From the NCBI GenBank assembly GCA_024304875.1, contig JAMWZF010000002.1, positions 1-38,408 of the forward strand: a stretch of 38,408 nt of DNA. The letters are read 5' to 3'. Every line of letters starts with the position of its first letter. The first letter of the stretch is position 1. Below are positions 4,929 through 18,513 of this stretch, piece by piece. The DNA is from Paracoccaceae bacterium. Its GTDB lineage: Bacteria; Pseudomonadota; Alphaproteobacteria; Rhodobacterales; Rhodobacteraceae. The notes beneath the pieces are model-generated. The model was not told the DNA's origin and did no database searches. It worked only from the letters and a program-made list of their open reading frames with translations. The position numbers and the translations under genes were made by a program.

Positions 4929-5018
4929 GGAGACGTGGCCGAGTGGTCGAAGGCGCTCCCCTGCTAAGGGAGTAGGCGGGAAACCGTCTCGAGGGTTCGA
5001 ATCCCTTCGTCTCCGCCA
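4929..5018 (+). tRNA. tRNA-Ser (anticodon GCT)
   Basis: GGAGACG...CGTCTCC acceptor stem, long variable arm, anticodon loop ctGCTaa, T-loop GGTTCGAATCC, encoded G-CCA. Confidence 0.95.
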
Positions 5019-5356
5019 CCGACTAAGCCATTGTTATTAAATACAAAAATGACACTGAACTTGTCTGGACCTTTCCGGGACTTGGCGACCCCTGACTCAG
5101 CTAGAGACCTGTAATCTCTCGCAAAACATCCCTCCAAACCGTCCCGCGTCTCTCGCCTGCTGGAGAGTCGGAGCGCTTTTGCGACTTCCACTAGAGCAGG
5201 GCCCGGCAGTAGGTCGTTCCGGAGTTGGAATTTTCACTCCCTTTCAATGCTTTGACCTATCGATCCGGACGCCGTCCGAAGGACTATAGGAGAACAATGT
5301 AAGTGGAATGGGCGGCGCTTGGGATCTTGCCCGCTCGCGGACACCGTCGGGACTGA

Positions 5357-7000
5357 TCAGCCCGCGAGCCGTTCGAACAGTCGCCGTTGGGTATCCCAGT
5401 CGGCCGGCAGTTCGTGGGTCTTGATCCATTCGGAGGTGAGGGCCACGGGCTGGAGGCCGCGGGTGATCCGGGCCAGGAGGTCCGGGGCGAGAAAGGCGAG
5501 CGGGATCATCTGGCGAATGCGGCTAGTGGCAATGCCCTCGAACTCGGCGATGGCGCCCAGGGTCTCGCCGCGGAGCAGCCGTTCGTGCCAGCTCCGGGCG
5601 GCGCGGATGTTGGCGAGGAGGATGGGGTCGGGGGAGCCGCCACGCGCGCCGAGAACAAGCCGCGCTTCAGCCCCGCGGCGACGCAGGGTGATGGCCTGTT
5701 GCAGAACAAGAGCGTCAGGATCCAGGCTGGTCTCCGCAATACCGATCCGTGTCGCCAGCGCTGCCGGATCAAGGGTCGCGGTCAGACTGGTCGGAGAGAG
5801 CCGGACGCCGGCGATCAATGTTGCAAGATCGTCCATGCAGTCGCTGCTGGCCACCGTCACCAGTGCGGCAGCAACTCTGGGCAATGCCGCAGGCGACATC
5901 TCCGGCAGCAGTCGCGCGGCCAGGTCCGGATCTCGCAAATGCCCCGTCATCACCTCGGCAACCGCCCCCTCGATCACTCGGGCAGGGAGGCGCCAAGCCC
6001 CCGGATGGTCCTTTGCCAGCCCGGTGATCAGCCGACGGGAGACATAGTAGCGATGCCGGACCTGACCTTTGCGACAGTGGCTCGGCGTCATCGCATCGCC
6101 GGTCTCGTCCATAAGCTTGCCGCAGAGCGGGGCTTTGGCCGGTGGTCCAGCGGGCCCACGGGGCCGGGCAGCCTCGTCGGACAACATCTGCTGGAGTGCA
6201 TCGAAGGTCTCCGGATCGATGATGGCCGCATGCTGGCCTTCATAGACATCCCGGTGATGCCGGATGCGTCCGGCATAGATCGGATTGATCAGCAGGCGGT
6301 GCACATCGGCCTTGCCGAAAGGATGACCACCGACCGTCCGGCCCGAGGAATAGGTTCTAAGCCGGGTGCGATACCCACGGTCCTCGGCGATCTCGGTCAC
6401 GCGCCGGAGGCTCCGATGCTCGGCATAGAGCGCGAAGAGATCGCGCACCACGTCGGCCTCGTCCTCGACGATGCTGAGGCTCCGCCCCTCGGGGGCGTAG
6501 CCAAGCGGCACCGCACCGCCCATCCAGAGACCCTTGCGCTTGGAGGCGCGGATCTTGTCGCGGATCCGCTCGGCGGTGACCTCCCGTTCGAACTGGGCGA
6601 AGGAGAGCAGCATGTTCAACGTCAGCCGCCCCATGCTGGTGGCGGTGTTGAAGCTCTGGGTGACCGAGACAAAGCTGGCCCCTGCGGCGTCGAGCCGGTC
6701 CACGATGCGGGCGAAGTCCGAGAGCGAGCGGGTGAGCCGGTCGATCTTGTAGACCACGATGAGATCGACGCGTCCGGCGTCGACCTCGGCGAGGAGCGAT
6801 TGCAGGGCGGGTCGGTCGAGAGTGCCGCCGGACAGGCCGCCATCATCGTAGCGGGCCGGCAGCAGCTTCCAGCCCTCGGCGGTCTGGCTGGCGACATAGG
6901 CGGCGCACGCCTCGTGCTGGGCATCAAGAGAGTTGAAGTCCTGCTCCAGACCCTCTTCGGAGGACTTGCGGGTGTAGATGGCGCAGCGGACCCGGCTCAT
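5357..7000 (-). CDS. Large serine recombinase family protein (resolvase + recombinase domains)
   Basis: CAIYTRKSSEEGLEQDFNSLDAQHEAC, DLIVVYKIDRLTRSLSDF, LTLNMLLSFAQFEREVTAERIRDKI. Confidence 0.93.
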   Translation of the reverse strand: MSRVRCAIYTRKSSEEGLEQDFNSLDAQHEACAAYVASQTAEGWKLLPARYDDGGLSGGTLDRPALQSLLAEVDAGRVDLIVVYKIDRLTRSLSDFARIVDRLDAAGASFVSVTQSFNTATSMGRLTLNMLLSFAQFEREVTAERIRDKIRASKRKGLWMGGAVPLGYAPEGRSLSIVEDEADVVRDLFALYAEHRSLRRVTEIAEDRGYRTRLRTYSSGRTVGGHPFGKADVHRLLINPIYAGRIRHHRDVYEGQHAAIIDPETFDALQQMLSDEAARPRGPAGPPAKAPLCGKLMDETGDAMTPSHCRKGQVRHRYYVSRRLITGLAKDHPGAWRLPARVIEGAVAEVMTGHLRDPDLAARLLPEMSPAALPRVAAALVTVASSDCMDDLATLIAGVRLSPTSLTATLDPAALATRIGIAETSLDPDALVLQQAITLRRRGAEARLVLGARGGSPDPILLANIRAARSWHERLLRGETLGAIAEFEGIATSRIRQMIPLAFLAPDLLARITRGLQPVALTSEWIKTHELPADWDTQRRLFERLAG

Positions 7001-7972: not shown

Positions 7973-8217
7973 TTTGTTGTCTCCTTGGCTCGGCAGGCGA
8001 CCATCGCCTGCTACCGAGACAGGCCCGGCAGGGCGGGCGAGGTGGCTTGGGGAGCGTCGGCAGTACCGCTTCCTTGCGAGCAATTGTCCAGTCGGATTGC
8101 GTCGTCCACATTGCCGGAGAAAGCGTCAGTTTCGTTGAGGTAACGGCATTGGCCGTCGTGGTCAGTTTGATGCGGGTTGCAGAGCGTCCTGCCGGACTCT
8201 CTGCGTGTTATTCGCGG

Positions 8218-10226
8218 TTTTCGATCCACGCCCCCGTGGTGGGGGCGACGGCCACCGATACCGAATGCTGCGCGACCGAGTAGTTTCGATCCACGCCCCC
8301 GTGGTGGGGGCGACACCTGATCGCCGCCATCGCCGCCTTCTTCAAAGGTTTCGATCCACGCCCCCGTGGTGGGGGCGACGTGCCATCCGGGCCAACCGTG
8401 ACGGATGTTCCCGTTTCGATCCACGCCCCCGTGGTGGGGGCGACAGGTCCCACGCCACGTCCGGGGCGTCCTCGTAGTGTTTCGATCCACGCCCCCGTGG
8501 TGGGGGCGACGGTCGCTATGACGCGGTCGTTCGCGGGTGCTCGGGTTTCAATCCACGCCCCCGTGGTGGGGGCGACCGGCATTTCGGCGGCGTCCGTCAC
8601 CGTCACGATGGTTTCGATCCACGCCCCCGTGGTGGGGGCGACCAACCGAGTTTCCGGCGTTGTCAGCATCGACGTGTTTCGATCCACGCCCCCGTGGTGG
8701 GGGCGACTTGCCCGGATCGCGTCTCGGCTTCCACCGGGCCGGTTTCGATGCACGCCCCCGTGGTGGGGGCGACTGCCGCCGCCGGACGACGGGCGGGCGC
8801 TCTGGCGGTTTCGATCCACGCCCCCGTGGTGGGGGCGACCGAAGGCGGCGTGATTGACCAGCAGGTCACGCTCGTTTCGATCCACGCCCCCGTGGTGGGG
8901 GCGACGTCTTCGGCATTTGGCAGCGCTGGAGGCGCACGAGTTTCGATCCACGCCCCCGTGGTGGGGGCGACCTGGGCGGCGCGGAACCACGTTGCCGATG
9001 AAATGTTTCGATCCACGCCCCCGTGGTGGGGGCGACCGCTCTGCCGAACGCTGGCGGGCGACAAGCTGCTGTTTCGATCCACGCCCCCGTGGTGGGGGCG
9101 ACGTCGTTTAGCTGGCCATCAGCCCCAGCAGGAACGGTTTCGATCCACGCCCCCGTGGTGGGGGCGACCCGGTCAACATGGCGGACGGTGCGGAAGGGCT
9201 TACGTTTCGATCCACGCCCCCGTGGTGGGGGCGACTCCGGATCGCGGCATAGAGGTCCGCCTTGAGGGCGTTTCGATCCACGCCCCCGTGGTGGGGGCGA
9301 CCGGTCTTGTTCAGCATCAGGTCCGTCATGCGCCGGTTTCGATCCACGCCCCCGTGGTGGGGGCGACAGGTGGTCATCGGGCCAGCGTCTGCCGCCACTG
9401 GTTTCGATCCACGCCCCCGTGGTGGGGGCGACGAGTTCGCAGGCGCTTGTCAGTGCGGCGTTGGGGTTTCGATCCACGCCCCCGTGGTGGGGGCGACCTT
9501 CATCCGGGCCTCCTTAGGTTTGCGTGTAGTTGTTTCGATCCACGCCCCCGTGGTGGGGGCGACGTGGGTCGGGGCGTGGACGGACTCGTGGTTCATGTTT
9601 CGATCCACGCCCCCGTGGTGGGGGCGACCTGCTGCTGCTCCTCCGGCGTCATGTCCTCCAGGGGTTTCGATCCACGCCCCCGTGGTGGGGGCGACATTGC
9701 CCCCTTCGTAGAGGGCTGGGGAAGGTGAAGTTTCGATCCACGCCCCCGTGGTGGGGGCGACTTCCGGTGGTCCGCTCACCGACCCCGTGATCGGTTGTTT
9801 CGATCCACGCCCCCGTGGTGGGGGCGACGGAGACCGGGGGCGTGACGTTATCACACTATGAGGTTTCGATCCACGCCCCCGTGGTGGGGGCGACGGTTCC
9901 GGCTCGGCGTGATGGACGACGGGCTGATGTTTCGATCCACGCCCCCGTGGTGGGGGCGACAAGGACACCGCTATCGAGGTCGGCGGCTTCGACATGTTTC
10001 GATCCACGCCCCCGTGGTGGGGGCGACATCCCGAACCACGCCGGAGTATTCGCAGGCAACCAGTTTCGATCCACGCCCCCGTGGTGGGGGCGACATGTGA
10101 CCGTCCGCCCACCTGTGCCGTCCTGCGTGTTTCGATCCACGCCCCCGTGGTGGGGGCGACCTGGTGTCAGACCCGCCGTGCGCATCAGCTTGTTGTTTCG
10201 ATCCACGCCCCCGTGGTGGGGGCGAC
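8218..10226 (-). CRISPR. Type I-C CRISPR array, 31 repeats/30 spacers; 32-bp repeat GTCGCCCCCACCACGGGGGCGTGGATCGAAAC (minus-strand orientation), spacers 33-36 bp
   Basis: Counted by hand: repeat units (plus-strand GTTTCGATCCACGCCCCCGTGGTGGGGGCGAC) begin at 8218, 8283, 8348, 8413, 8479, 8545 ... 10129, 10195. Variants: 8218 (first base T), 8545 (GTTTCAATCC), 8742 (GATGCACG). Orientation from cas operon position and repeat 3' end GGATCGAAAC. Confidence 0.99.
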
Positions 10227-10402: not shown

Positions 10403-10693
10403 TCACATGATCAATGGCCCGTCCATGTCGGTCGCGGGTTTCGTGCCGATATGTTCGACCCGGCGACGCCACTCCTTGCCGAGCATGTAGAAGCGCAGGG
10501 AATCGCGCTCGGGGTCGATGATCTCGACTAGACGGGCGCGCAGGGCCGTCCATTGGGCGGGGTCCAGGTCACATTCAAAGACGGAGAACTGGACCCGTTG
10601 CCCCCAATCCTCGCAGGCCCGTGCAACCCTGCGCAGACGACGTCTGCCGGGTGCATCTTCGGTGGACACGTCATAGGTGACAAGGACCATCAT
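10403..10693 (-). CDS. cas2: CRISPR-associated endonuclease Cas2
   Basis: [50 protein letters not shown] track start (10867) lies inside cas1, so real start is about 10690/10693. Confidence 0.95.
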
Positions 10694-10712
10694 TGCCGCG
10701 CCCCCGAAACGA

Positions 10713-11744
10713 TCAACCCCAAAGCCAGCCGACGTAGTCCGACACATCACCCCGAAGATGCCTGGCAAGGAGTTGGGACTGGACTTGCAGTACGAGGCCA
10801 AGAGGAATTCGTTCATCAAGCCAGGGGTGGCGAAGTTCGGTGCGCTTTCGGCCCTGCCATTCAACAAGAACGAGCTTGCGGCCTACATCGGTAAGAAGCA
10901 CCGCCCCGGTTTCCTCGCGCCGCAGGTGCATCGGCCGGATTTGTTTGCGGTTGATGAGGGACAGCGCCACCCGGTCGCACAGCGGTGCCCTGATTTCCTC
11001 CATCAAGTCGAGCGCCAAGCTCATGCGTCCGGGCCGGTCCCGGTGGAGAAAGCCCATCTGAGGGTCGAGACCATGGACTTCGCAGGCCGCCCGGGCGTCC
11101 AGAGCCGCTAGGGCATAGAGAAACGACAGCAGCGCGTTCACAGGGTCCCTAGGCGGGCGGCGGTTGCGGCCAGAAAAGACAAATTCGGCGCTGTCGTTTC
11201 GGATCAGGTTCGGGAAGGCCGACCAGTAGGCCTGCGCCCCTTCGCCTTCGCAGCCGCGCAGAATGTCTAGATCCGGGGCATCGAGAGCCAGGCGGGCAGC
11301 GCTATGAAGTCGGAGTTGTGCATTGTTCACCGTTTCGGCGTCGTCGTCATCGCCGTAGTCGCGCAGGTGGCGGCGCAGCAGCGCACGTTGGTTCGCGAGC
11401 TTGGCGGCAACAATGGCGCGCGCCACGGGCAGGGCAGAGACCGGGTCGACCGTTGCCCGATGCTGGGCCCGGCGCAGCAGCACATTGCCGGTCTGGGGGC
11501 CTTCGAGCCGCCCGGCAAGCTTGCCAGAATAGGTCAGCCAGGCAACAGAGGTGCCGGTCTCGGCGGCGTGGGCCATGAGATCGCGGGACATCGAGGTTTC
11601 GCCAAAGAGCACGATCTGGCTCAGCAGATGGGCCGGCACACGACTGCGGCTGATGCCGTCGATTTCGACGGAGACAGTCTCGCCGTCCTTTCGGAGAAAC
11701 GACCCTTCGGTCGTTATGTAGAGCGTGTTGAGGAGACGCTTCAT
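10713..11744 (-). CDS. cas1: Type I-C CRISPR-associated endonuclease Cas1
   Basis: [30 protein letters not shown]..; [66 protein letters not shown]. Confidence 0.97.
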
Positions 11745-12364
11745 TCCGGTACCCCGGCGCGACCCAGGCGTAGGGCCATCCAATCGGGCCCGGTGTCGCG
11801 TGGGGCTTCGGGGCGGCAGAGGTCGGACATCGAGCAGGCCTCGCATCGGCGCGCGTCGTAGACCGGCGGCGGCAGTGTCCCGGACATGATGGCCGCCCTT
11901 GCCTCCTTGACGACAGTCAAGGTGAGTTGGCGCAGGTCGCTGTCCATCGCGACCTTTTTGCGCCGCCGGCTGCGGCCGTAGAACAGGGCCCCTTCGGGTA
12001 CGGCTACACAGGTCATTTCTTCGAGGCAGAGGGCCTGAGCGCAGAGCTGAACCTCGTCGGCTCGGTGCGCCTTTGGCCGCCCGCGCTTGTATTCCACGGG
12101 GTAGGCAATGCCATCCGTAAATTCGACTACATCCGCCACCCCATGCAATCCGTGCTCCTCCGAGGCCACCTGGACCGACCGCAGGACCCGTGCACCGTCC
12201 CGGCTATCCGGATGTCCGGCGTCGACCCTTTCGTGCAGCACCCGCCCTTCGGCAGTCAGTCGGTTTTCATCCCAGAGCCTCTCGACATGGATTAGTGCAG
12301 ATTGCCGTGGGCAAAAAAGCCAGTGCTGGAGCGCCGAGAGGGGGAGGCTGTCACCAGGGTTCAT
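11741..12364 (-). CDS. cas4: CRISPR-associated exonuclease Cas4
   Basis: LPLSALQHWLFCPRQSALIHVERLW, YPVEYKRGRPK, CEACSMSDLCRP. Confidence 0.96.
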   Translation of the reverse strand: MNPGDSLPLSALQHWLFCPRQSALIHVERLWDENRLTAEGRVLHERVDAGHPDSRDGARVLRSVQVASEEHGLHGVADVVEFTDGIAYPVEYKRGRPKAHRADEVQLCAQALCLEEMTCVAVPEGALFYGRSRRRKKVAMDSDLRQLTLTVVKEARAAIMSGTLPPPVYDARRCEACSMSDLCRPEAPRDTGPDWMALRLGRAGVPE

Positions 12365-13271
12365 GCAGGGTGACGCCGGGCGGCAAGTCTATGTCGTCCA
12401 CCTCGATCCGGTAGTCGGAATAGGACCGCGCTGGGGGATGGTTGTGCAACCGCTTGTCGCCCGGGTCAAAGACCTCTCCATCCGCCATTCGGCTGACCTT
12501 GACCCTTTCGAAAAGCCGGTGGGCCTGGGCGTTGCCAAGATCGCTGTCATGCCGGAACGCGATCAGCCTTCGTGATGCCATCATCCCGCGTGATGCGGAA
12601 CGGTCGAGGTCGAGCATGTCGCGCAGTGCGGTCCAGAACAGGTCCAAGTCGTCTTCGGAGAACCCGGTGCGCTGCGCCAGCTTTGCGTTGATGAAGCCGT
12701 GCAACCGGTAAAGCCCGTAGGGCACCACGTGCTTGCGGCCCATGGTGCGTTCCTTGTCGCGGTCTTCTTCCTTTGTGACTGAGGATCGGGTGATGGAGAC
12801 TTCGAGTGGCATAATGGCTTCTTCGGAGCGGGCGAAGGTCAGCTGCACCGGGCCACGCACCTGGCCTGCGTTTACCCCCGTCGACATGACGGCGCCGAAT
12901 GTCCGGATGTCCCAGAAGTTGGCGCACATCCAGTCAGTCAGCCCGCGTGCCTCGGCATCCGCCTTGGGGAGCCTCTTGTACTGATCCTTGCCGGTTCCGG
13001 TCGGCTCGGTCCCCGTGGCTTTCCAGGCCTCCTCGTGCGCTTCGTTCAGGACCGACCGTTCGGTGAAGTAAATTCGGTGTGGCGCCTGGTTGCCATGAGC
13101 CTCGGCCACGTAGTTGCGCAGCTTTCGCTTGACGGACACGTCGGTCATCAGGCCTTGGTTGGTTTCGGGGTCCATCCGGGGCATGTTGCCGGCGTCAGGG
13201 TCGCCGTTGGGGTTGCCGTTTTCCACGTCCATGAACAGGACAAAGTCCCAGCGATTGGTCAGGCCGGTCAT
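12351..13271 (-). CDS. cas7: Type I-C Cascade subunit Cas7 (Csd2)
   Basis: NRWDFVLFMDVENGNPNGDPDAGNMPRMDPETNQGLMTDVSVKRKLRNYV; RGPVQLTFARSEEAIMPLEVSITR. Confidence 0.97.
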   Translation of the reverse strand: MTGLTNRWDFVLFMDVENGNPNGDPDAGNMPRMDPETNQGLMTDVSVKRKLRNYVAEAHGNQAPHRIYFTERSVLNEAHEEAWKATGTEPTGTGKDQYKRLPKADAEARGLTDWMCANFWDIRTFGAVMSTGVNAGQVRGPVQLTFARSEEAIMPLEVSITRSSVTKEEDRDKERTMGRKHVVPYGLYRLHGFINAKLAQRTGFSEDDLDLFWTALRDMLDLDRSASRGMMASRRLIAFRHDSDLGNAQAHRLFERVKVSRMADGEVFDPGDKRLHNHPPARSYSDYRIEVDDIDLPPGVTLHEPW

Positions 13272-15067
13272 TCGGCATCCTCCGTGTCGTCGGTGTCGAT
13301 CAGCGGTTCGGCTGCGTCCTCGGCTTTGGTGTAGAAGGCCGACATCTGGTGGTAGAAGCCGATGAAGAAACGTCCCTGTTCTTCGAGTGGCAGGGCCGAG
13401 GGAAGGTTTCCGCCGCCGGGCAGCAGGCTCAGGATCGCACTTATAGCGCGGTCTGCCTTGACTCCCGACCCGGCTTTTTGCCCGCCCGCCTTGTGCATGG
13501 CCGCCAAGTTGTGTTCGTAGCCCCGCATCAGCACCGGGAAGACCCGGGCAGGGGTGGCCGAAGCGGAGGCCATGTATTTCGCGCGCAGGCTCGCGCCCCG
13601 CTCCTGATAGCTGCGCTCGGCATAGGCGTAGGCGGCAAAGAGCCGCCCCAGCAGGTAGGCCGGTTCTTCGGTTTTTTCGTCCAGGGACACGGGCACCTCC
13701 AAATTAAGGTTGCGTTTCAGAACGGCGCGGATCATCGCCGCGCGGCGGCCGTCCAGGTTGCCGTGGCGGGCGCGGTCGGGTTCACCTTCTACCCGTAGTC
13801 GGCCGATGACTGCGGGCAGCAGCGTGGCAGGGTAAGGGTCTTGGGTCAGGATGGCGCGCATCAGCTCGCCGCCCAGCTTGGCCGGGATGTTCTTCTCATC
13901 GCGCTGTGCCGCAAGATCATAGAGCAAAGCCCAGGGTTTCGGCGGCACCGCAATACCGTCCCGCTGAAACGGTGAGGGCCCGATTGAACAGTCATCCCAA
14001 AACCGGCGGGCGGCGCGGGCCAGGTCTCCCACCGTTCCGGGCAGCCAATAGCGCACCGAAAGGCGGGCCGCGTTGGGCGCGAGTCCCAAGACATAGAACC
14101 GGGTGGCGGGGGTCAGCACCTCATCAGGGCGCGGTTGGCCCTCGGCAAGGGCCGTAAGCCGGGCGGCAAGTTCGTTCTCTGCCTTGCCATCCTGGCCACT
14201 CGCGCTGGCGAATATCGCGGACATGGCGTTCTCGGCAGCCTCCTCGCCCGCTCCTGACGCCCAGAACACCACCGTGTCGCCGCCGATTCGCAGATTGTTG
14301 CCCGAGCCACGCGCAAGAAGCGCGTTCAGCGCGGTGCCGTAGGCGAAAGCGGCGGCCTCGGACACCGGGGCGTTGTCGCCCTGTTTCTTGCCGTGTGAGG
14401 TTTCCGCATCGTTGTTGAACGACACCAGCGACGCGCCGGAGGATTGGGCCCCCATGACGCCCTTGACGGTGGGATGCAGCCTTGCGACGGGCGCCCGATT
14501 GCCGGTGACAAGGCACATTACCTCACCCTCGCCCCCGTGGTCGAGAAGCACCCTGGCGGCGGGCAGGTCATGCAGGAACTTGCCCCGGTCCAGTCGAAAC
14601 ACCAGGTTCTGGTCCACCAGCGCAGCGGCGTCGGGGAAATCAGCGAACCTCTCCGGGTCCCAGGATTCGCAATACAGGCGCAGGGCCACCAGGTCCGGGT
14701 CTATGGCCTCGGCCAGTAGGTCAATATGGGCGGCGCGGAAGGCCGCATGTTCCGCAGCGGTGCGTTTGCCCTGACCTGGCCCCTCCTCTGTTGCGGTGAT
14801 GCCGAGGGTATAGGCTGACTTGTCCCAAAAGAAGTTTGGCTTAATGCCAGCGGTTCTTTTGACTGCGGCGGGAACGGCAACAGGACGTGGCATCAGTTTC
14901 TTGCCCTTGTCATCGGGCGTCAGGAAACTGACGAATTCCGCCACAGTGCCGTCCTCTCGCAGGGTGATGACCCCTCCGATGTTCTCAGTTGAAAAGCCGG
15001 GGGAGGGCCATTCGGCGTCTTCGGCGCGGCGCTCGTAGAGCGCGGCTAGTTCTTGCAGGACGCTCAC
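13268..15067 (-). CDS. cas8c: Type I-C Cascade large subunit Cas8c (Csd1)
   Basis: [55 protein letters not shown]; likely GTG start at 15067 right after the cas5 stop. Confidence 0.95.
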
Positions 15068-15738
15068 ACCGCTGCCCCCTGGGCCAGGCATTTTCGCACG
15101 TCGATCACACCGCCCTGCATCCGCGCTCGGTAGAACACCGAGACCCGGTCATTAGCGTAGTCGATGTCATGCAGCATCCAGCCAAGATCGCGGTCCTGCT
15201 CGGCCGGGGGCAGGGCAGTCTCGGGGAAGCCCCCGACAAGTTCGAAATCCGCCGGAAATTCGCGTACGCCCAGGCAGGGCTGATGGAAACATTGGCCCTT
15301 CTCGGCCCGGCGTCGGAACATCTCGGCGTGTTTGCCGGGGTTGTCCTCGGCTCCGGCTTTTTCGGTCATCTCGAAATGCGCCTCGATCCCGTATGCGACA
15401 TTCACCAGGCACAGCATGGCGCGCTGCTGTCGGTCTTCGTCAACGGCAAGGGAAAGGCCGCTGAGATGCCCCGATTTCATTGCCGATTTCGCCTTGGTCA
15501 CGGGTATCTTGGAGGCCACCTCGTTGCGGCGGAAGGTTTCAAAGCGGATCGGCTCAAGGATATGAAGCCGGTCGATCACCCAGCGGATCGCCGGTTTCCA
15601 GTGGATCGCCTCCAGAATGCCACGGGCGGCAGAGGGGGTAATCACGTCGTAGGAGACACGTTCGACCTTCATCTCTGGCCGGGTGAAACAGGCGTTGCGC
15701 CCTCGGACGAGAAGTCGAACTCCGGTCATGGGCGGCAT
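15064..15738 (-). CDS. cas5c: Type I-C Cas5c (pre-crRNA processing endonuclease)
   Basis: [48 protein letters not shown]; alternative start at 15729. Confidence 0.96.
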
Positions 15739-15755
15739 CCAATTGAATGCCGCCC
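15730..15755 (-). promoter_or_regulatory. Hairpin over the cas5c start: GGGCGGCAT-TCAATTGG-ATGCCGCCC
   Basis: Perfect 9-bp inverted repeat; the 3' arm begins with the cas5c ATG (15738-15736). Confidence 0.6.
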
Positions 15756-15760
15756 AGTGT

Positions 15761-15834
15761 GCAGGACAAGGTCTGCTACAAGAAACAAGATTGGGTTTCG
15801 ATCCACGTTGCTCATCAGAAGAACCTTAGCAACG
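15761..15834 (-). ncRNA. Candidate CreA-like (crRNA-like) RNA: pseudo-repeat hairpin + 11-nt handle + about 34-nt pseudo-spacer
   Basis: Minus strand: CGTTGCT-AAGGTTCTTCTGATG-AGCAACG-TGGATCGAAAC-CCAATCTTGTTTCTTGTAGCAGACCTTGTCCTGC. The last 13 nt of the CRISPR repeat (CGTGGATCGAAAC, 15807-15795) are perfect; 7-bp stem abuts the handle exactly as in the CRISPR repeat. Confidence 0.75.
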
Positions 15835-15898
15835 ACGAGATGAGATATGCTAGACCCAGTACGAGTCGCAGCCATCTGTCAAAGTTACTCCATCTCAT
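15815..15898 (-). CDS. Candidate CreT-like mini-ORF, 27 aa: [27 protein letters not shown]
   Basis: ATG at 15898-15896, AGGAG SD 7 nt upstream (15910-15906), stop TGA at 15817-15815; lies directly upstream of and overlaps the crRNA-like element. Confidence 0.6.
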
Positions 15899-15909: not shown

Positions 15910-15946
15910 TTCCCAATATTTTTCCTTGTGTAGACTTGTCATTCAT
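15910..15946 (+). promoter_or_regulatory. Predicted Cascade target (TTC PAM 15910-15912 + protospacer-like sequence) over the SD/5'UTR of the mini-ORF; -10-like TATTAT on the minus strand at 15950-15945
   Basis: TTC-CCAATATTTTTCCTTGT vs pseudo-spacer CCAATCTTGTTTCTTGT: identical at 14 of 17 positions, mismatches at 6, 9, 12 (and 18). Confidence 0.7.
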
Positions 15947-16006: not shown

Positions 16007-18229
16007 CTAGAAAACCCCGCCCAGCACGCCCAAGTCAGAGACGGCCACCCCGGCGCGGTCATCGTAGTGTTCGGTCCCGATCAGCAGGGCGAATTGGTCG
16101 CCAAATCTGTCCGGGGAGAACCATTCAACCAGCCCAGTGTCCCGCAGTTGCTGCCAAAGCTTGAATGGCAGGTTGACCGTATGAGGCCGCAGCAGGCGGG
16201 CCAGGGCGCCAGGACTGCCATACCGCGCCTTTTCCAACTGGTCCGGATCGACGCCGAAGTGGCCGTCGACCACCGTTATCGTTGGTTGGCCGTCATCGAT
16301 GATGCGGAAGGCGGCTTCAAGTTTCTCGAAATGGCACTCTGGACCCCAAGCGCCAATCGAATTCAGAATACCCGTCGTCTTGACAGCGGTTCCCACCGTC
16401 CTGCTGTCGAGCGCCGCCGCGCCATAGGTGTCCCACAGCTTATGGAAATAGAGACTGACCGCGTCCCGGCCGATCGGATCACCACCGCCGATTTCAGCGA
16501 GCGTCTTTCGACCAATTTCGGCAAATTGTTCCAGAGCCGGCGGCGGGTCGTGCTCCGGGCGGAAAACCTCGACCCTGCCAACACCGGGCAGCTTGCCCTC
16601 TCGGTTGCAACGGCCCGCTGCCTGCGCGATGGCGTCGATCCCGGCGGCGGCGCGCAGGACAACGGGGAAATCCACGTCCACCCCGGCTTCGATCAAGGAC
16701 GTCGAAATCAGCCGCACGGGGCTGCCATCCTTTAGCCGATGGCGGACCTCGTTCAGCACCGCGGTCCTATGTGACGGGGTCATCAGCGTGCTGAGATGGC
16801 AGGCACCGGGTGCGTCTCTGACAGCGTCGAACAGCATTCGCGCCTGCATCCGGTTGTCCACGATCAAGAGCGCCCGCGGTTCGGATCGCATCCTTTCGGC
16901 CAGGGCGGCGTCGCTCATCTCGCCGACGTCCCGCACCTCGACCCGCCGCAGCCGATTGAACAACGCGTCGGGGTCCGGGGCGATTTCTCGGGCTCCGGTC
17001 AGCGCCTCGGGCGCCGGAAACCCACCTTCGGCAGTCAGGGAGGGTTGTGTCGCGGTGGACAGGACAATGCTGCAACCGTAGCCGTCGATCAACTCGCTGA
17101 GGGCCGCAAGGCAGGGCCGCAGGAGAGGCAGGGGCAGCGTCTGCGCCTCGTCCAGGACCACAACTGACCCTGCAATTGCCGGCAGTTTCCGACAGCGCTT
17201 CTTGCGGGCGGCGTAGAGGCTTTCGAAGAACTGTACGGATGTCGTGACCACCACCGGCACGTCCCAGCTGGCGCCCATGATGCTGCGCTGTTCTTCTTCG
17301 CTTTCGTCTTCTCCGGCCCAATCTGCATTTGTATGGTGTTCAAGAACAGCCTCGTCTCCCAAGACCTCCCGAAAGACACTGGCTGTCTGTTCAATGATCG
17401 AGGTGAAGGGTATCACATAGATCAGACGTCGCAGCCCGTGGCGCAGGGCGTGGTCCAGACCGAACGCCATAGAGGTCAGTGTCTTGCCCCCACCTGTCGG
17501 CACGGTCAGGGTGAACAGCCCCGGCGATTGCTGCGCCACGTCGCGGGCATGGGCCAGGATCTGACGCCGCATGACATTGATGTCGCTGCCTCCCGTCATT
17601 GCGGCCATGTGCCTGTCGAATTTGCTGCGCATGATTTCGGTCAGCTCTGTGGGTCGCCGAGTTGTCTCCTTGTGTGCAATTGCGTCGTAGAAGGCCGCAG
17701 TCTCCCGGTCGTCGGCGTCGGTTAAAGCACCATACAGCATGCGCACCAAAAACTGGAGCCGGAATGGCCTATTCCTCCTAGACGCCGGTTCCGTCAGCCG
17801 ACCGGGCAAGGTGATCGTAGGTACGTCACACCAATCCGGCAGAACTAGCCTTTCGGCTGCTTCGATACGCCGCCGCAACCGGTCCGGATCGGGCAGGCGC
17901 CCGTGATGTCCGGCGATAGTTCCGGCTAGGAGCAGCGCCGCGCCGCCCATGTCATGGAGGACACGAGCACCCTCTCCGGAATGGGAAACGTCGCTTCGGG
18001 CACCCTTCAAACTTGGGCGGAGCTTAGCCTGAAATTCAGGTTTTAATTTGCCTAAGTCATGTAGCATGCCCAATACGCGCCCGATATCCCCGGCTCCAAA
18101 GGAATCGGCCCTGCGTTCTGTAGCTCTTGCCACATTAACTGAATGGGTTTCCAGAGATTCCCATTCGGCCTCTGGTCGCCCGGGAACGCTATGGGCAAAT
18201 GCCTTCAATCGACTCTGATCCACTCGCAT
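16007..18229 (-). CDS. cas3: Type I-C CRISPR-associated helicase/HD nuclease Cas3
   Basis: HSVNVARAT..LGMLHDLGKLKPEFQ, AGHHGRLPD (HD domain), VPTGGGKTLTSMAFGLDHAL, VVVLDEAQTLP, STSLIEAGVDVDFP..QAAGRCNREG; start probably 18229 or 18244 rather than 18412. Confidence 0.96.
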   Translation of the reverse strand: MRVDQSRLKAFAHSVPGRPEAEWESLETHSVNVARATERRADSFGAGDIGRVLGMLHDLGKLKPEFQAKLRPSLKGARSDVSHSGEGARVLHDMGGAALLLAGTIAGHHGRLPDPDRLRRRIEAAERLVLPDWCDVPTITLPGRLTEPASRRNRPFRLQFLVRMLYGALTDADDRETAAFYDAIAHKETTRRPTELTEIMRSKFDRHMAAMTGGSDINVMRRQILAHARDVAQQSPGLFTLTVPTGGGKTLTSMAFGLDHALRHGLRRLIYVIPFTSIIEQTASVFREVLGDEAVLEHHTNADWAGEDESEEEQRSIMGASWDVPVVVTTSVQFFESLYAARKKRCRKLPAIAGSVVVLDEAQTLPLPLLRPCLAALSELIDGYGCSIVLSTATQPSLTAEGGFPAPEALTGAREIAPDPDALFNRLRRVEVRDVGEMSDAALAERMRSEPRALLIVDNRMQARMLFDAVRDAPGACHLSTLMTPSHRTAVLNEVRHRLKDGSPVRLISTSLIEAGVDVDFPVVLRAAAGIDAIAQAAGRCNREGKLPGVGRVEVFRPEHDPPPALEQFAEIGRKTLAEIGGGDPIGRDAVSLYFHKLWDTYGAAALDSRTVGTAVKTTGILNSIGAWGPECHFEKLEAAFRIIDDGQPTITVVDGHFGVDPDQLEKARYGSPGALARLLRPHTVNLPFKLWQQLRDTGLVEWFSPDRFGDQFALLIGTEHYDDRAGVAVSDLGVLGGVF

Positions 18230-18391
18230 GGTCTTCCCTACCATCGACTTTTTATTCTCACCACTAATTGGAATTCCCGTGCTCTGTGCAATAGAGAACT
18301 TCAGCAACACGGGCTCTGTCGCAAGAACCGGGTGATAGCTGAGGCTCTCCGTTTCCCTGTCGAAGTTAACCCCACAGCTTCCGTGACGGCT

Positions 18392-18513
18392 AAACTGCCA
18401 TGAAAACGGCAAGGCGCGTGCGCATCTGATCGTGGCTGCAGTATTGTAAGCGTTTCACCGATGCGTCCTTGACCGCAAGGTTCATCCCTTCGACCTACTG
18501 TTGGTCCCCTCAG
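18392..18513 (-). pseudogene. Relic of an IS481-like/rve-family transposase C-terminal region
   Basis: Minus-strand translation VEGMNLAVKDASVKRLQYCSHDQMRTRLAVFMAV* resembles the conserved VERMNRTIKDATVKRFxYxSHDQLRxHLxxFxAAYN motif; upstream in-frame TAG and probable frameshift. Confidence 0.65.

Follow-up and report, generated by a model that had tools for sequence, protein, structure and literature searches.

A predicted CRISPR-repressed toxin-antitoxin module with a small hydrophobic peptide in a proteobacterial type I-C locus

Why should a 27-codon open reading frame (ORF) lying between two cas genes end inside a structure that resembles a CRISPR (clustered regularly interspaced short palindromic repeats) repeat? 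The question arises in a 38,408-nucleotide (nt) stretch of a Paracoccaceae bacterium genome (contig JAMWZF010000002.1), hereafter the window, in which this mini-ORF lies within the 268 nt that separate cas3 from cas5c in a type I-C CRISPR locus. The answer that we consider probable, judging from sequence, is that the window carries a type I-C CRISPR-repressed toxin-antitoxin module whose toxin is a small hydrophobic peptide. RNA-guided repression of the mini-ORF start region by the I-C effector appears strongly supported, and for the cargo we favor a peptide toxin above other readings, its main rival being autorepression in the manner of the regulatory RNA CreR. The proposed module is made up as follows.

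15815..15898, minus strand: mini-ORF, candidate toxin gene (creT/creP-like), 27 codons, stop codon TGA inside the psiR1 loop
15906..15911, minus strand: Shine-Dalgarno sequence (SD) AAGGAG, 7 nt before the ATG, overlapped by the complement GAA of the protospacer-adjacent motif (PAM)
15795..15836, minus strand: psiR1, an ectopic degenerate CRISPR repeat with GTCG, a rewritten 7-bp stem, an enlarged loop and an exact 12-nt end, GTGGATCGAAAC
15761..15794, minus strand: psiS, the 34-nt guide of a putative CreA RNA (CCAATCTTGTTTCTTGTAGCAGACC...), following psiR1
15729..15756, minus strand: psiR2-like 12-bp hairpin, TGGGCGGCATTC-AATT-GGATGCCGCCCA, overlapping the cas5c start
15910..15912, plus strand: TTC PAM of the psiS target
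15913..15946, plus strand: protospacer-like target of psiS, of which the first 17 nt (15913-15929) pair, with mismatches at 6, 9 and 12

An earlier reading of this DNA (the original prediction) had described a hydrophobic ORF of 27 amino acids (aa) with a strong SD and a stop codon in the loop of a hairpin resembling a CRISPR RNA (crRNA), and all of this holds. The ORF runs on the minus strand from an ATG at 15896-15898 to a TGA at 15815-15817, its translation is exactly the one quoted, and AAGGAG lies 7 nt from the start. The candidate toxin peptide is basic, hydrophobic and membrane-like over its 27 residues, and an equally hydrophobic SD-led ORF appeared in 0.7% of dinucleotide shuffles of the mini-ORF's own segment (p = 0.007).

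The hairpin that holds the stop codon, psiR1, reads GTCGTTGCT-aaggttcttctgatg-AGCAACGTGGATCGAAAC from 15836 to 15795; the array repeat is GTCGCCCCCACCACGGGGGCGTGGATCGAAAC. The first 4 and last 12 bases of the two are identical, and the psiR1 stem preserves 7/7 pairs despite differing arms, the changes being compensated. Its loop measures 15 nt, versus 5 nt in the array repeat. The conserved 3' part (CGTGGATCGAAAC), which we take to be the 5' handle that Cas5c leaves in type I-C, has 29 copies in the 3.6-Mb assembly, of which 28 lie in the array and one at psiR1. The proposed physical tie between the ORF and a crRNA-like RNA is supported. The psiR2-like hairpin begins 38 nt past psiR1, roughly where a second repeat is expected. 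It also overlies the cas5c start, and a Cas5c cut at its base would cleave the gene's own mRNA just before ATGACC.

Type I-C systems use TTC as their PAM. On the plus strand, positions 15913-15929 (CCAATATTTTTCCTTGT), directly preceded by TTC, are matched by the guide bases that follow the handle (CCAATCTTGTTTCTTGT). Guide-target matches were scored over positions 1 to 17 minus 6 and 12, for a maximum of 15. The window guide scores 14/15 on its own target with a TTC PAM, a value reached by 0/5000 shuffled regions. The PAM and target overlie the SD and 5' region of the mini-ORF together with a promoter-like pair, ATGACA-16-AATATT (15942-15915).

Equivalent modules are present in the same gap of about 30 other type I-C loci (given L numbers below). 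Cas5c homologs were gathered from a collection of species genomes and from samples drawn at the family, order, class and genus levels, and the cas3-cas5c gaps at their loci mostly fall in two classes, below about 190 nt or from 190 to 860 nt. Of the 53 loci whose gap measures 150 to 900 nt, 39 contain an ectopic handle. The handle threshold is loose when taken alone, being reached by 278 of 2650 shuffles, and it is therefore the guide-target test that carries weight: 28 of the 39 loci have their own TTC-flanked target scoring at least 11/15 in their own gap region, versus 4 of 1476 foreign guide/region pairs. When no PAM was imposed, TTC was still the commonest trinucleotide ahead of the best match. 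For a profile of the pairing, targets were picked on nucleotides 1-5 and 7-11 only, so that later positions are free of selection bias. Guide and target then match in 93, 93, 71, 79 and 64% of cases at nucleotides 13 to 17, in 32, 21 and 32% at nucleotides 6, 12 and 18, and mostly near chance from nucleotide 19. In type I Cascade every sixth guide base is flipped out, and a pairing that leaves 6, 12 and 18 free and ends at about 17 thus points to working but short Cascade guides. The same pattern, with its end at 17, offers a practical rule for finding more modules.

The relatives share further features with the window. Their second hairpin exceeds the 95% level of the null in 32 of the 38 loci in which a hairpin was found (40 scanned), and many of their targets lie immediately upstream of a -35-like TTGAC. 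Of 11 loci compared, 5 have an array within reach, and in these the psiR handle agrees only partly with the host's own array. Loci with the module span the Alpha-, Beta- and Gammaproteobacteria, including Azotobacter vinelandii (L078), Delftia (L060), Halomonas (L091) and Pannonibacter (L057), and their SD-led hydrophobic ORFs exceed those of shuffles (Fisher p 1.4e-10). The original prediction had set the ORF beside CreTA, a CRISPR-regulated toxin-antitoxin RNA pair of haloarchaeal type I-B and Acinetobacter type I-F systems (PMC8501985, PMC9458426, PMC10097628). That placement stands, and the PAM-flanked target, the second hairpin and the relatives go beyond it. The same module is also seen in reverse orientation within the gap (L014, L048, L050, L075, L118 and L120); at L118 and L120 the guide matches 15/15, but GTC or GCC stands in the place of the PAM.

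Short hydrophobic ORFs recur in these gaps, at L006 (MSLRNLEQLLRLAYWLCRVIGELLRW), L011, L028, L057 and L069 and in a homologous trio, L003/L017/L124. The trio's peptides are 19/31 identical, with 16/31 alignment columns invariant. Their pairwise nucleotide differences (11/7/20, 8/9/21 and 10/5/21 by codon position) fall mostly at third positions, and wherever dS can be estimated, the ratio of nonsynonymous to synonymous substitution rates (dN/dS) comes to about 0.15-0.18, one pair being saturated. A basic peptide family at L050 and L075 is 18/26 identical, with differences of 8/2/17 by codon position. Both homologous sets are under purifying selection at the amino acid level. The window peptide itself aligns without gaps to that of L006 at 38% identity, equalled by 2 of 400 shuffles. 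The original prediction had offered a small membrane-active toxin as one of two modes of action, and peptide selection in relatives makes it the better of the two, with toxicity itself still a prediction. More broadly, we lean, if only slightly, towards a picture in which proteobacterial type I-C loci share one regulatory chassis, consisting of cas3, the target, a toxin ORF, psiR1-psiS-psiR2 and cas5c, in which one small toxin can be exchanged for another. The predicted cargo comprises short hydrophobic helices, peptides whose membrane stretch is C-terminal, and the basic MRRRR..IEIELDLEPI family.

Searches of the peptides against Pfam, NCBIfam and PHROGs gave nothing above the cut-off and no KilA-N domain. 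A faint resemblance links the window peptide to YgaP-like/DUF2892 membrane domains, at their first helix (Pfam E value 0.043, below the cut-off), which is a possible origin for it. Among 387 family genomes, the P0001 profile found its own locus and weak matches, two of them YgaP/DUF2892-like by eye. The L003/L017/L124 profile matched strongly only at two known loci, and four weaker matches that we inspected were rejected as homologs: what they share is an unrelated conserved open frame, usually of 55 aa.

The second mode of action in the original prediction was sequestration of rare tRNAs. In a CreTA proper, the transcript would be toxic as RNA through its rare arginine codons (AGA at 2 and 8, AGG at 25) and the peptide would be irrelevant. 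These codons are indeed unusual, since AGA makes up 1.17 of every 1000 codons in the clear coding sequences (CDSs) of the window, versus 31 for CGC and 27 for CGG, and with CGA at codon 11 all 4 of the 4 arginine codons in the mini-ORF are rare. The strong SD fits such a toxin too, as does the AGA after the start in known CreT (PMC8501985). The mini-ORF, however, has no consecutive rare-codon pair, and AGA at codon 2 occurs in only 2/9 short hydrophobic ORFs, those of the window and L003, being lost in L003's own homologs. Codon usage is also relaxed overall, with a G+C fraction at third codon positions of 0.58 versus 0.79 in the window CDSs, so that the rare-codon effect is not specific to arginine. 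Purifying selection on the peptides of relatives, together with the unconserved codon 2, favors a functional peptide over tRNA sequestration, which at the sequence level is not supported as the conserved mechanism and is in our estimate quite improbable here.

CreR-like autorepression would have the guide repress the promoter feeding cas5c-8c-7c, with the mini-ORF as an incidental leader ORF. The genes follow one another on the same strand, and a simple sequence scan showed no terminator-like site between the mini-ORF and cas5c. CreR, moreover, is a Cas-regulating RNA already known in types I-B, I-E and V-A (PMC13131331), and L109-L111, which combine an ectopic repeat with a guide and its target in a gap of 193 to 195 nt but have no SD-led ORF there, are candidates for autorepression of this kind. 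What makes it an unlikely account of the window is the conservation of hydrophobic or basic peptides, with substitutions mainly at third codon positions, and the occurrence of differing peptide families at the same position, which suggests cargo rather than leader. The patchy presence of the module, missing from the close relatives L023/L024, and the diverged window peptide would suit a decaying remnant, a CRISPR-derived scar that has lost its function in this genome. We give this very little credence, as the window keeps its PAM and 14/15 guide-target pairing, a fully compensated stem, an exact handle and an intact ORF and SD.

Several points nonetheless weigh against a peptide toxin-antitoxin module. 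Among cultured strains, the two nearest relatives by Cas5c are L023 and L024, both without it, and the window target lies 94 nt past the cas3 stop, versus about 10-50 nt in most relatives. For the mini-ORF promoter, a TTGACA that closely follows cas3 competes with ATGACA-16-AATATT, which leaves the assignment ambiguous. No SD-led ORF of 15-75 codons was found in 11 of the 32 loci tested, and several loci with guide and target have none; some of these may be CreR-like regulators or carriers of RNA toxins. The selection figures hold for sets of relatives and not for the window copy itself, whose closest peptide match is just 38% identical. Both the expression and the toxicity of the mini-ORF are predictions from the DNA letters.

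If the toxin-antitoxin reading is correct, Cas5c would cut the ectopic mini-array psiR1-psiS-psiR2 to give a crRNA-like CreA RNA. CreA-loaded Cascade would then occupy the TTC-flanked target over the promoter and 5' region of the mini-ORF and block its transcription, the 17-nt pairing probably being insufficient for Cas3 recruitment and cutting. If Cascade were lost or mutated, or if an anti-CRISPR inhibited it, the strong SD would allow expression of the mini-ORF. The released 27-residue hydrophobic, basic peptide would damage the inner membrane and stop growth. The CRISPR locus would thereby become addictive and anti-CRISPR carriers self-limiting. We infer these steps, from CreA transcription and processing through repression to toxicity and a membrane target.

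Such a module would resemble CreTA in its place inside the cas locus, between cas3 and cas5c, in its degenerate repeats that keep the Cas-binding handle (exact end, compensated 7-bp stem, psiR2-like hairpin), in its guide partly complementary to the start region of a small gene next to the correct subtype PAM (14/15, TTC, 0/5000 shuffles), and in the strong SD of that gene. The creTA genes known before lie around the cas6 gene in loci of type I or III, with CreA processed by Cas6, and I-F modules lie between cas3 and csy1 (PMC10097628), whereas the window locus is type I-C and without cas6, and its module sits beside cas5c, with Cas5c as the predicted processing subunit. CreTA also has an RNA toxin, archaeal CreT carrying paired rare codons after the start, in contrast to the apparently selected hydrophobic peptide and lack of paired rare codons here. 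CrePA, in which CreA represses a KilA-N-domain protein toxin (PMC12737573), would share with the window module a protein toxin under transcriptional repression by Cascade-CreA, proposed here from architecture and peptide selection, but the window product is a 27-residue membrane-like peptide without that domain. The module thus seems to work like CreTA, with a toxin similar in nature to that of CrePA, and to lack the defining toxin features of both. With CreR it shares an ectopic repeat and a guide with partial promoter complementarity; unlike CreR, it has its target at a small ORF that carries an SD, and not plainly at a cas promoter. Type I toxins of the Ldr/Ibs/TisB class are short and basic with a single hydrophobic helix, as the window peptide appears to be. 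Unlike in type I toxin-antitoxin systems, a crRNA-like guide would act as the antitoxin; no antisense RNA was seen, and no search was aimed at antisense RNA. A literature search for CreTA with type I-C found no description of such a module, though surveys of standalone repeats may list I-C, which makes priority uncertain.

A December 2025 review asks whether CreTA-like mechanisms are widespread in other CRISPR types and whether there are CRISPR-repressed toxins with other cellular targets (PMC12737573). The window locus, like its relatives, suggests that each exists in type I-C, a Cas6-less subtype, with a candidate membrane-peptide toxin. If the shared-chassis picture is true, CRISPR-guarded peptide toxins would form a large class that has escaped annotation and that punishes the loss of I-C Cascade or its inhibition by anti-CRISPRs. 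Modules of this kind might also yield selectable reporters for anti-CRISPRs that act on I-C.

The surrounding locus is complete as open frames from cas3 through cas5c, cas8c, cas7c, cas4, cas1 and cas2, and its effector genes are full-length.

16007..18412, minus strand: cas3 (type I-C), upstream of the module, by family profile
15064..15738, minus strand: cas5c, the crRNA-processing subunit in type I-C, start at 15738 or 15729, by family profile
13268..15091, minus strand: cas8c, by family profile
12351..13271, minus strand: cas7c, by family profile
11741..12364, minus strand: cas4, by family profile
10713..11846, minus strand: cas1, ORF as listed, the Cas1 profile beginning at residue 35-38
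10403..10867, minus strand: cas2, ORF as listed, the Cas2 profile beginning at residue 59
8215..10226 (ends approximate), minus strand: CRISPR array, repeat GTCGCCCCCACCACGGGGGCGTGGATCGAAAC

Other gaps seem to hold a different kind of ORF in place of the repeat module. At L013, L016, L083 and L102 (also L053, L067 and L084, with L067 and L084 judged from partial sequence only), a 100-120 aa ORF (NGKIYVGSDLTD...YNRRP) looks GIY-YIG-like by eye; two of these ORFs had no Pfam match, and a strong ectopic handle is absent from these gaps. In the window, an Rfam search of the whole stretch returned a tRNA as its sole match, and no direct repeats of the tRNA end that could serve as attachment (att) sites were found within it. 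At 4929-7000, 1 kb before the CRISPR locus, a tRNA-Ser(GCT) is followed by a serine recombinase-like ORF, an arrangement that suggests a mobile island.
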